In this document: positions 6,404 through 14,021 of the stretch, in pieces | Layout of the letters: the number at the start of each line of letters is the position of its first letter | Position numbering within the stretch: position 1 is the first letter of the stretch | IMG/VR virus record: IMGVR_UViG_3300025110_000067 | Coordinates: 1-32,434 of that record | DNA from: a virus | Length of the DNA stretch: 32,434 nt | Reading direction: 5' to 3' (one strand) | Program-made: the position numbers and the translations under genes | The notes under the pieces: generated by a model | Databases searched by the model: none | Seen by the model: only the letters and a program-made list of their open reading frames with translations | Told to the model about the DNA's origin: nothing

Positions 6404-7561
6404 TCAATATACGAATGAGTAAGCAACAGTTATGAAGTCCTTATTAAGGATTTCAAAACCAGCAAAGAGTGACCAAATCATAATGATGAAGCGTGAAAAG
6501 TCATCATTATTGTTTAATAAGATTTGGGCATTATTGCCACCAATTCCTACACCAACTGCCTGTGGTCCAAAGAATAACATTGGAGCAATATTGTAATTAG
6601 CTGCACCAGCATTTGCTGTGTCAACTGCAATATTTGCATTGATAGTCTTTTCAGGTAAGTTGGTTGACTCGAACCATCTGACTCCCTCGAACAGGAAGCC
6701 TGTTGGCATGACAGGTTGTCCAGCTACGAAACCAGCTTGTCCGTATGCTGGGCCCATGCCCTGGAAGAAGTTAGCGTTAGGAGCCTGCTCTGGAGACATA
6801 GGATTGACCATCCCATTGCCTGCATATCGTGCGATTTCTCTGAACGCGTCGTTCTGCCTCAGATGCATCATGGCGGTCGGATCCGCTATGCATCTGTAGT
6901 AGCCGTCTGAGAAAGTCGGAACGTTTCTCTTACGCATGTCTTTGACGACCTGAAGAAGGTCTGTCTTGACATCGAACTTAGCTGAAACATTAGCTCCGTA
7001 GGTGAAGACTGGGTTTCCTGCTGCTTTAGCACTTCCACCTGGGAAGTAGTATCCACCCTGTGCATCGGATGAATTACCATTCGCTTCAGCTTTAAATAGC
7101 TCATCTGCGAATACTCTATCTCTCCAACGTCTGTAGTCGTCCAAGAGGGTCAGACTACCAATTGACTGGTGAAAAACGTTGAGATTACCAGTATCTAGGA
7201 GTAGGCGTTGTGCAGTTAACAATGTTTCACGAGCAACCTTAAAGGTTGAAGGTGAAGTTGCATCGCCTGGATCTGCTGGGCCTGTGTACTCCTTAAGGTT
7301 CACTAGAACCTTGTCTTTAACAATATTTCTACTAGAAGCCGTACCGAGTGTTTGATCCGCTGTACGTTCTCTGGAATCCTTGTTGCCAGGATTTCCCCAG
7401 AATCTATAACGGTCGAGTTGCACGGTCTGTCCAGGTTGCTTGGAAAAATCATGCACCACTACGGGCTCTACAGCCATCTCGATTATGTAACCGGGATGCG
7501 GGCGATAAAGCTCGGCCCCCAGTAGTTTTGGAACGTGAAACTCCCTTATTTCTAAGGGCAC
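6404..7561 (-). CDS. Major capsid protein, N4-gp56-like; 5' end altered by intron
   Basis: The protein forms the icosahedral head. The 385-residue frame shows the N4-gp56-like capsid pattern: LLGAELYRPHPGYIIEMAVEPVVVHDFSKQPGQTVQLDRYRFWG near the N-terminus, a repeated aromatic/Arg helix (LTLLDDYRRWRDRVFADELF), and GYYRCIADPTAMMHLRQND. The length suits the family. The apparent start is GTG 7561 with no Shine-Dalgarno and a stop two codons upstream. A group IA intron core ends just before it, and a probable P9 hairpin covers codons 2-6. The true coding exon therefore probably begins near 7540 (FHVPKLLG), with the first codons on an upstream exon. If the intron lies wholly in the leader, GTG could still be used. 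Capsid identity is firm; the N-terminus is not. Confidence 0.85.
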   Translation of the reverse strand: MPLEIREFHVPKLLGAELYRPHPGYIIEMAVEPVVVHDFSKQPGQTVQLDRYRFWGNPGNKDSRERTADQTLGTASSRNIVKDKVLVNLKEYTGPADPGDATSPSTFKVARETLLTAQRLLLDTGNLNVFHQSIGSLTLLDDYRRWRDRVFADELFKAEANGNSSDAQGGYYFPGGSAKAAGNPVFTYGANVSAKFDVKTDLLQVVKDMRKRNVPTFSDGYYRCIADPTAMMHLRQNDAFREIARYAGNGMVNPMSPEQAPNANFFQGMGPAYGQAGFVAGQPVMPTGFLFEGVRWFESTNLPEKTINANIAVDTANAGAANYNIAPMLFFGPQAVGVGIGGNNAQILLNNNDDFSRFIIMIWSLFAGFEILNKDFITVAYSFVY

Positions 7562-7834
7562 CGACTATATCATCTAAGTAAAAAACTTTTGTCTTAAAGT
7601 CTTCCAACTTAGCTGGACGCTCTTGCCTGTTATTAAGAGAACTGTATCTCTCAGGTAGTCTGTGAACCTTCTAGAGATGTATCTCTAGCTTGGCTGCTGA
7701 TTGCCTTATCTCTCGACTTAGGTTTCCAGCAGTTCATCCAGTTTTAAATGATCCTAGAGTCTTACGACTGAATCATTATCAATCCACATTGGGATTTATA
7801 ACTCCGAAACTTATAGGGAACAAATACACACCTA
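7541..7834 (-). ncRNA. Group IA self-splicing intron core
   Basis: Read on the minus strand, all conserved elements occur in order. P3 is CTGGATG (7741-7735) with CGTCCAG (7619-7613). P4 is CTGCTG (7732-7727) with CAGCAG (7699-7694), next to the classic GGAAACC and GCAATCAGCAGCC boxes. P6a is CTAGAG/CTCTAG. P7 is GACTA (7660-7656) with TAGTC (7567-7563), inside GGTTCACAGACTA and GATATAGTC. P7.1 is CCTG/CAGG and P7.2 is AGAGA/TCTCT; P8 is CTAAGT/ACTTAG. The P7.1/P7.2 insertion marks subgroup IA, as in the T4 td intron. A P9 hairpin, CCCTT/AAGGG (7558-7543), enters the capsid ORF; two P2-like hairpins lie at 7796-7781 and 7776-7748. The 3' splice site is inferred after G7541 and the 5' site at 7835/7834; both are tentative. 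Confidence 0.85.
7813..7823 (+). promoter_or_regulatory. ATAGGGAACAA motif upstream of LAGLIDADG gene
   Basis: CTTATAGGGAACAAAT lies 12 nt before the first LAGLIDADG ORF. The same 11-mer occurs at 31250-31260, 31279-31289 and, on the minus strand, 8071-8061. The TATAGGGA shape resembles the start of T7-class phage RNA polymerase promoters. It also overlaps the 5' part of the intron on the other strand, so a structural RNA role is an alternative. Confidence 0.4.
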
Positions 7835-8572
7835 ATGTGTGTTGTCTATATCATAAATACATCTCATAGGGTAAAACTATTGGAGGCTACCGACGTTCGC
7901 GGAATCCTCGGATTATTGATAGCAGATGGAAGTCTTGTCGCATATCGCACTCCTAGCGGTGGTTACATACAACTCACACTTGTAGCTGGTGCGACCGAGT
8001 CTGCTTTTCTAGAGGAAAAAGTTAAGGAATTTAATCAATTTATTTTCACAAAGGCAAAAATTGTTCCCTATAAAACAAAAGCAAGATCAAGCGGTAATTC
8101 GACTCCAATTCTTCGTTTTAGGGTTTCAACCAATAAATTACGTCCTGTCTACAACCTTCTTTATCCAATTGGCGAAAGGCAGATTACTCAAACCACTCTT
8201 GATTTATTAGGAGCTAAAGCTGCTGCATGGTTATGGGCAGAAGGAGCGAAAGTCTTAAAGGATGGCTCTTCTCTGCTCTCAAGAGTTGGAAATACATTCG
8301 AAGAGACTCTAATGATTCAAAGTTGGCTCCAGATGCTCGTTGGAGCAGAAGGAGTTATTGATGAAAACTACGTTCGCCCAAGAATTCAATTCGATATAGA
8401 GAATACCCAGAAAGTACAAGAAGCACTTATCAGTTACGCACCCCAAAGTCGTTTACACCTTTTCAAACAGGAGCAATGGAATGTCAGCGCAATTCGTAGT
8501 TCACGCACTGAGTTACAGTTTGGGAAAGGGGAAAATCAATCTCAAGGGGAAAAGGCAACGTCCTTGGCTTGA
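7835..8572 (+). CDS. LAGLIDADG_2-type homing endonuclease, first copy, 245 aa
   Basis: The layout matches the single-chain LAGLIDADG_2 family: a first motif GILGLLIADGSL (about residues 23-34) with the acidic residue kept; a beta region and helix ending LRFRVSTNKLRPVYNLLYPIGERQI; and a second motif AAAWLWAEGAK (about 130-140), where the usual MDDGS is AEGA, leaving Glu as a possible catalytic acid. Such proteins cut intronless alleles and move their intron, or free-stand beside it. It reads opposite to the intron and capsid gene, which is unusual. ATG 7835 has no clear Shine-Dalgarno; TTG 7880 is an alternative start. Its 3' end overlaps the second copy by 92 nt in another frame. Activity is unknown. 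Confidence 0.75.
   Translation: MCVVYIINTSHRVKLLEATDVRGILGLLIADGSLVAYRTPSGGYIQLTLVAGATESAFLEEKVKEFNQFIFTKAKIVPYKTKARSSGNSTPILRFRVSTNKLRPVYNLLYPIGERQITQTTLDLLGAKAAAWLWAEGAKVLKDGSSLLSRVGNTFEETLMIQSWLQMLVGAEGVIDENYVRPRIQFDIENTQKVQEALISYAPQSRLHLFKQEQWNVSAIRSSRTELQFGKGENQSQGEKATSLA
8061..8071 (-). promoter_or_regulatory. ATAGGGAACAA motif facing the capsid gene
   Basis: On the minus strand TTTATAGGGAACAATT repeats the 11-mer found three times on the plus strand. Here it points leftward, toward the intron and capsid gene, from inside the first LAGLIDADG ORF. If the motif is a phage promoter this copy would start the capsid transcript about 200 nt upstream of the intron. It could also be chance within coding sequence. 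Confidence 0.3.
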
Positions 8573-9071
8573 AATTTCCAGAAGTGAAATTGATCGTACT
8601 TATTTAGATCACCAACTAAGAACACTTAGATATTCTCATGACGGACCAGTTGATTATTTCTGGGATCGCATTGCAACAGATGGCTTCTACGACAAGGAAC
8701 GTTTTAGATTCCAAGGAGAGTTACTTTGGAGGGCTTATGAATTGCTTTATCCAAGAGATCTATTTTCAATTAACAGAGAAGTTCTTAATATTGCTGGATT
8801 AAAAGGAGCTGCTGCTCTTTGGATTGATCAAGGCAGAATTACTGGTAAGAAGGGATCTATTAGAGGTCGATATTCTGAGAATGATTATTTAGAACTGGAA
8901 TCATGGTTTAACGATCTTAGTATCCCTGCAAAAATCCATCGAAACAATATGAGTGTTGTTCAATTAAGTTTTAAAAAAGATTCTCTGATTGCTTTGCTTG
9001 AATTAATTAAACCATTCATACACATCAATATGAAGAAGACATTAAAGCAACAGTTCTCGAAATTCAGGTAG
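8481..9071 (+). CDS. LAGLIDADG_2-type protein, second copy, 196 aa
   Basis: The ATG at 8481 has a good Shine-Dalgarno, AGGAG at 8469-8473, with a 7-nt spacer, so it is probably translated in its own right although it overlaps the first ORF by 92 nt in the +1 frame. The C-terminal 110 residues repeat the second half of the first copy: LLWRAYELLYPRDLFSI, AAALWIDQGRI, YSENDYLELESWFNDL and SLIALLELIKPFIH, all in LAGLIDADG_2 order. The first motif is degraded to FWDRIATDGF, and the second has Gln where the catalytic acid is expected. It looks like a tandem duplicate now serving as a partner subunit, a maturase or a decaying copy. Confidence 0.68.
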   Translation: MSAQFVVHALSYSLGKGKINLKGKRQRPWLEISRSEIDRTYLDHQLRTLRYSHDGPVDYFWDRIATDGFYDKERFRFQGELLWRAYELLYPRDLFSINREVLNIAGLKGAAALWIDQGRITGKKGSIRGRYSENDYLELESWFNDLSIPAKIHRNNMSVVQLSFKKDSLIALLELIKPFIHINMKKTLKQQFSKFR

Positions 9072-12935: not shown

Positions 12936-14021
12936 TTAGCCAATTGCAGGTGCAAGTAGAGCTACTTCACTAGTTGCTGTAGAAGCAAGATCTAGAGGGA
13001 AATTATGAGCATTACGCTCGTGCATAACTTCCATTCCGAGGTTAGCGCGATTTAAAACGTCTCCCCAAGTAGGAATGACTTTACCTTTATAGTCTACGAC
13101 AGACTGATTAAAGTTGAATCCATTTAGATTAAAAGCCATTGTGCAAATGCCCATACTTGTAAGCCAGATACAGATAACAGGCCAGCTAGCAAGGAAAAAA
13201 TGCAAACTTCTTGAGTTATTAAATGACGCGTATTGGAAGATTAATCTTCCGAAGTAGCCATGTGCAGCCACGATGTTATAGGTCTCTTCTTCTTGACCAA
13301 ACTTATAACCATAATTCTGAGAAGTTAAACCAGTGGTTTCTCTTATCAAAGAAGAAGTTACAAGTGAGCCGTGCATTGCTGAGAACAAAGCACCTCCAAA
13401 CATTCCTGCTACTCCAGCCATATGGAAGGGGTGCATTAAAATGTTGTGTTCAGCCTGAAATACGAACATAAAGTTGAATGTTCCAGATATTCCTAAAGGC
13501 ATTCCGTCAGAGAAAGAACCCTGACCAAAAGGGTATACAAGGAATACAGCGAATGCAGCAGATACTGGTGCTGAGTATGCAACACAGATCCAAGGACGCA
13601 TTCCTAGACGGTATGACAGCTCCCACTGTCTTCCCATATATGCAGATATTCCAATTAAGAAATGAAATACAACGAGTTGGTAAGGACCACCGTTATATAA
13701 CCATTCATCTAACGTCGCCGCTTCCCATATGGGGTAGAAATGTAACCCAATTGCGTTACTACTAGGTACAACAGCACCAGAAATAATGTTGTTGCCATAT
13801 AAGAATGAACCAGCTACTGGTTCGCGGATACCGTCAATATCGACTGGTGGTGCAGCGATAAAAGCGATGATGAAACAAGTTGCAGCAGCTAACAAGCAAG
13901 GAATCATTAAAACTCCAAACCAGCCAACGTAAATGCGATTACTGCTTGAGGTAACCCAATCAGTAAACTCGTCCCATCCCTTTAATAGGCCACCACCTCT
14001 AATTGAGGTTGATGTAGTCAT
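12936..14021 (-). CDS. psbA: Photosystem II D1 protein
   Basis: D1 carries the photosystem II reaction centre in the thylakoid membrane; phages supply it to keep host photosynthesis running during infection. The 361-residue frame is uninterrupted. Key residues are kept, offset by +2 from standard numbering: Tyr163 (YZ), Asp172, Glu191, His192, His200, His217, Ser266 (QB site), His274, His334, Glu335, His339, Asp344, and the processing site after Ala346 (NFPLDLA), with a 15-residue tail. Residue 132 (standard 130) is Gln, the low-light form. The stromal D-E loop reads [14 protein letters not shown] instead of the usual host RETTETESQNYGYK, replacing an acidic segment near where damaged D1 is cut. 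Its leader carries a structured element shared with the next gene upstream. Confidence 0.98.

Follow-up and report, generated by a model that had tools for sequence, protein, structure and literature searches.

The DNA analysed here, hereafter the window, is a complete IMG/VR virus record, 32,434 bases long. Its major capsid gene lies on the minus strand and is interrupted close to the 5′ end by a short group IA intron, while two overlapping open reading frames with LAGLIDADG-like character lie on the plus strand. In addition to an uninterrupted psbA (12936–14021), the window encodes a terminase and a structural protein of the portal region. The capsid product matches the phrog_1357 major head protein (E 4.3e-21), and the Synechococcus phage S-EIV1 provides its sole match among cultured phages (71% identical). 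Because psbA, a terminase, a portal-region protein and an S-EIV1-matching capsid are all encoded in it, we assign the window to an S-EIV1-like cyanophage. The S-EIV1 record itself (L081, KJ410740) splits the capsid between two annotated hypothetical proteins (60784–61545, minus; 61540–62010, plus), one of which is placed on the wrong strand; our alignment indicates a single capsid gene that extends from about 60859 past 61989.

The splice sites were derived from intronless members of a set of capsid-gene relatives (n = 80), most of which are uninterrupted and begin MWIDNDFPKLLGAELYRPHP, giving a protein that starts MWIDNDF. On the minus strand of the window, exon 1 (7771–7789, ATGTGGATTGATAATGATT) ends in U and equals the start of the intronless L003 capsid gene, and exon 2 (6404–7533) opens TTCCAAAACTACTGG and extends from the second position of codon 7 to the stop. 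Since positions 7789–7771 joined to 7533 onward read MWIDNDFPKLLGAELYRPHPGYIIEM unbroken and in register with L003, the intron is placed at 7534–7770 (minus strand), an ORF-less element of 237 nt with C7770 as its first base and G7534 (omega) as its last, inserted between the first and second bases of codon 7. The exon–exon junction after splicing is GATAATGATT^TTCCAAAACT, and the joined exons encode a 382-aa major capsid protein beginning MWIDNDFPKLLG. Supporting this assignment, a cmscan search returned a full-length match to Rfam RF00028 at 7542–7790 (minus strand; 81.3 bits, E 2.2e-19); no other RNA family was found in the window, even with a permissive Rfam scan. The RF00028 model begins about 20 nt early because exon 1 is taken as the 5′ part of the intron. 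An earlier, sequence-only reading of this DNA had proposed limits of 7541–7834, which include both exon 1 and the 5′ leader (7790–7834). It had also described the capsid gene as lacking a Shine-Dalgarno sequence, and it contained neither P1 nor the true start codon. The leader does carry a likely ribosome-binding site, GGAG at 7802–7805 (minus strand), which precedes the ATG (7789) by 12 nt; in an alignment of ten relatives, most retain it.

Group I introns have a P3–P8 catalytic core with P7 as the G-binding helix, and they self-splice in a guanosine-dependent manner; the 5′ exon ends in a U paired with a G in P1, and the last base of the intron is G. Subgroup IA is marked by a P7.1/P7.2 insert between P7 and the 3′ strand of P3. 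In the window intron, P1, its extension, P3, P4, P5, P6a, P7, P7.1, P7.2, P8 and P9 all pair without mismatches, and P10 appears weak by eye. P1 consists of the last seven bases of exon 1 (AAUGAUU, 7771–7777), fully paired with the internal guide sequence (IGS; GAUCAUU, 7747–7753), with a U-G pair at the splice site (U7771). Downstream on the same strand are the 5′ strand of P3 (7735–7741, pairing with 7613–7619), P4 and P5 (7694–7732, with the GGAAACC and CAGCAGCC boxes), the 7-bp P6a hairpin (7671–7688), the 5′ strand of P7 (7656–7660, pairing with 7563–7567), the P7.1 and P7.2 insert (7626–7655), a P8 hairpin longer than in most relatives (7574–7612), and a P9 hairpin with a GAAA loop (7543–7558). 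P9, which had been located inside the first capsid codons, is thus within the intron, just before exon 2. The P3–P8 core, with its RF00028 match, pairing and covariation, together with the U-G pair in P1, omega-G7534 and the restored reading frame, places the element among the group I introns, and the P7.1/P7.2 insert places it in subgroup IA, as the sequence-only reading had proposed for this strand.

The fold is more stable than those of shuffled sequences, with a z-score of −4.2 and none of 200 shuffled sequences equally stable. Among eight distinct site-A intron sequences, standard pairs make up 99.0% of cells, compared with 89.8% in shuffles, and double-sided changes occur in 22 pairs, compared with 9.7; none of 500 shuffles matched the observed pairing or the observed number of double-sided changes. 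P6a accounts for double-sided changes in 6 of its 7 pairs and P7.2 in 3 of 4. When the partner strand was slid by one base, a control that keeps the relatedness of the sequences as the shuffle control does not, pairing fell to 41–43%. Compensation extends to the exon, since in L088 and L091 exon 1 has GAC instead of GAT and the IGS reads GGUCAUU instead of GAUCAUU, giving a C-G pair.

Among cultured phages, the window intron matches the psbA introns of S-SRM01 and S-PM2. Alignment of S-SRM01 psbA to the uninterrupted psbA of the window reveals three inserts, at nt 282, 756 and 1008; in its record (L187, 207378–209800) that gene is annotated as two D1 fragments and an endonuclease, and the paper describing the record mentions one intron. 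The window intron is 71% identical to S-SRM01 psbA-756 over 205 columns and 85% identical over a 136-nt core. In a joint tree, the site-A capsid introns form one clade with S-PM2 psbA-1008 and S-SRM01 psbA-756 and psbA-1008 (96/100), which excludes every other capsid site sampled. This shared clade shows that the intron lineage has passed from one of these two genes, psbA and the capsid gene, to the other, in one direction or the other. A group I intron with identical 19-nt core letters (GGTTCACAGACTACCTGAG) is also present in L089 (7891–8110), an 87-kb contig without a capsid match in the stretch examined.

Capsid introns in the relatives were mapped by spliced alignment and Rfam, and positions are given as the capsid CDS nucleotide preceding the intron. 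For the survey of 80 loci, the query was the neighbouring gene on the downstream side of the capsid, which keeps recovery independent of capsid introns. Group I introns occupy ten capsid sites in S-EIV1-like phages (12, 19, 51, 107, 144, 397, 418, 696, 849 and 1049), with site 19 falling at 18 in L066, L162 and L164. At least one capsid intron is present in 33 of the 80 loci, some genes being partial. The complete gene of L123 has five (107, 144, 397, 696 and 849), and its joined reading is stop-free over 382 aa; L119 and L122 have four each, and L057, L128, L131, L132, L165 and L088 at least three each. Five of the ten sites fall within the first 144 of ~1,149 nt, near the divergent LAGLIDADG gene, a clustering noticed post hoc. 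All extracted introns end in G after a U-ending exon, a choice that the aligner rewarded and which is therefore not independent evidence. Two apparent sites from the spliced aligner, I (690) and I2 (696), were merged into one at 696, where by eye the IGS fits TTGCGT. Runs of adjacent inserts in L158, L176, L177 and L178 proved to be artefacts of the aligner's 520-nt limit, each locus having one insert of ~1–1.2 kb. The inserts of L158, L176 and L178 contain LAGLIDADG genes, antisense to the capsid gene in L158 (1312–2259, minus) and L176 (2290–3267, minus) and sense in L178 (2348–3205, plus).

Comparison of close relatives points to a mobile element. The capsid proteins of the window and L003 are 99% identical, and only the window has the intron; the same intron occurs in the separate contigs L001, L002, L092 and L095. 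Because it is present or absent at the same site among close relatives, we regard the intron as mobile. Since no endonuclease gene lies within it, movement in trans is probable, either through homing driven by a free-standing endonuclease or through reverse splicing and recombination.

Endonuclease-driven homing is plausible for the window's intron, and a possible, tentatively held form of it is collaborative homing, in which the neighbouring LAGLIDADG pair, or that of a relative, would cut an intronless capsid gene near the site, with the intron riding on the repair and protecting its own copy. ORF1 (7835–8572, plus strand, 245 aa) is divergent from the capsid gene, starts 45 bp from the capsid ATG and resembles LAGLIDADG_2 homing endonucleases (PF03161, 29.8 bits, E 6.9e-7). 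It is overlapped in another frame by ORF2 (8481–9071, plus strand, 196 aa), which has a LAGLIDADG-like stretch by eye and no Pfam match. No relatives of ORF1 were found in the PDB or in phage records. Both frames are under purifying selection (dN/dS 0.07–0.24 for ORF1 and 0.03–0.25 for ORF2), and all twelve loci that were translated, with identities as low as about 63%, show the overlapping two-frame layout, which rejects a sequencing error as the source of the break. Conserved as a pair across the clade to about 60% identity, the two ORFs may represent a two-subunit protein that has been split, or else a case of programmed frameshifting. Nor is the LAGLIDADG gene part of the intron: its position is outside the element, on the upstream side of the capsid ATG, and intronless phages have it too. 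Consistent with collaborative homing, related LAGLIDADG genes lie inside the capsid inserts described above, and identity between the window and L003 is 82% in the 100 nt downstream of the site and 90–100% in the upstream flank, a pattern that fits a co-conversion tract. There is also precedent in F-CphI, which lies beside the S-PM2 psbA intron (PMC5931967; PMC3984707). However, intronless phages (L003, L004, L010 clade) have the pair just as often, L066, L087, L091 and L094 lack it next to the same site-A/A′ intron, and identity dips of similar size are found elsewhere. The occurrence of the pair in both intron-plus and intron-minus phages means that it does not tie down the means of mobility.

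Alternatively, the introns may spread mainly by IGS-guided reverse splicing at the RNA level, including to new sites within the capsid gene, although we consider this rather unlikely as the main route. Site B (nt 107) and site E (nt 1049) hold introns that cluster in the trees (93/88 in IQ-TREE; 87/50 in the joint psbA tree); both have ACGACTT as upstream exon letters and GAGTC as IGS, but their downstream exons differ, a hint of IGS-guided reverse splicing inside the capsid gene. Introns C and F likewise share ACCGT and the IGS GCGGT. Against this, support for B and E is moderate, and C and F, drawn as sister lineages by FastTree, were not resolved as such by IQ-TREE. Moreover, most capsid sites hold their own intron lineage: the introns group by site with 12 label changes against a minimum of 11, and none of 200 shuffles grouped them as well. 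Grouping of this kind is expected of site-specific elements. Whichever route applies, presence or absence at ten mapped sites makes the movement of ORF-less introns, by homing in trans or by reverse splicing, directly testable.

The window intron resembles known systems in part. The psbA introns of S-PM2 and S-SRM01 belong to the same lineage, and that of S-PM2 is likewise short with a free-standing endonuclease nearby; it is reported to splice efficiently during infection, its splicing responds to light, and it interrupts the target of F-CphI (PMC5931967). The window intron differs from these in its host gene, the major capsid gene, in its 5′ exon and IGS, and in the neighbouring endonuclease, LAGLIDADG-like here and F-CphI in S-PM2. 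In the mycobacteriophage LittleE, a probable group I intron interrupts the major capsid gene and is spliced in infected cells (PMC3706429). The likeness extends to an endonuclease gene in opposite orientation, but the LittleE insert is 819 bp long, contains an HNH endonuclease and occupies a single site, whereas the window intron has 237 nt and no ORF and occupies one of ten sites. The group I introns of T4 td, Twort and Bastillevirinae are mostly IA and number up to three per gene (PMC11878797). They share with the window the subgroup IA fold and the occurrence of several introns per gene; those described interrupt DNA polymerase, terminase and nucleotide-metabolism genes, among others, in contrast to up to five in one capsid gene here. 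Unusual here are the host gene and the intron density; a phage capsid-gene intron was already known from LittleE (PMC3706429). A literature search for introns in S-EIV1-like capsid genes gave no match, and in the part of the literature covered, three group I introns were the most reported for any phage gene. Within the limits of that search, it is well supported that this capsid gene, with ten sites and five introns in one copy, is the most intron-loaded phage gene known.

Based on the fold and the splice sites, we propose the following course. The RNA of the capsid transcript would fold from P1 to P9, guanosine would attack the U-G splice site at the end of exon 1, and exon 1 would then attack after omega-G7534, releasing a ligated mRNA that reads MWIDNDFPKLLG. 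Splicing in the cell is predicted here from sequence. Unspliced, the frame from the true ATG reads MWIDNDSVVRL, 11 codons, and stops at codon 12, and splicing restores the conserved N-terminus. As this RNA is an 11-residue dead end, functional capsid would require splicing, in agreement with the dependence that the sequence-only reading had inferred. We therefore consider it very probable that the element is an ORF-less phage group IA intron, homologous to psbA introns and inserted after the first base of capsid codon 7, whose removal is needed for functional capsid.

Few products are in greater demand during a phage infection than capsid protein; an intron in its gene would thus persist only if splicing were fast and near complete, and a capsid gene with up to five introns amounts to a natural stress test of phage group I splicing. 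Splicing might further act as a regulatory gate that links capsid production to light or energy state. Light-dependent splicing is reported for the S-PM2 psbA intron (PMC5931967), of the same clade as the window intron, while the presence or absence of the intron among near-identical phages argues for its dispensability; such gating, drawn by analogy with S-PM2, is speculative, and we judge it improbable. The joint claim that an ocean cyanophage capsid gene is the most intron-loaded phage gene known and that its introns gate capsid by light or energy state is likewise improbable as a whole.

It is highly improbable that the intron is inactive and that capsid translation begins, without splicing, at an internal codon such as the GTG at 7561–7559 (minus strand). 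In the window and in some relatives the frame from this codon does stay open as far as exon 2, but the equivalent frame is stopped in L087, L088, L091 and L094 and shifted in L066, L162 and L164, the conserved N-terminus and the GGAG go with exon 1, and compensatory changes maintain the ribozyme fold, as they would not in a dead remnant. This GTG, previously taken as the start of the capsid ORF, is intron sequence, and its open frame is not conserved; intronless relatives start MWIDNDF. Annotation ORF by ORF fragments such capsid genes, as happened in that reading.

Between the divergent genes, the leader also contains an inverted repeat, ACACAC...GTGTGT (7810–7840, minus strand), which overlaps the start of ORF1. 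At the same place relatives have CACG...CGTG, and the repeat appears to covary.
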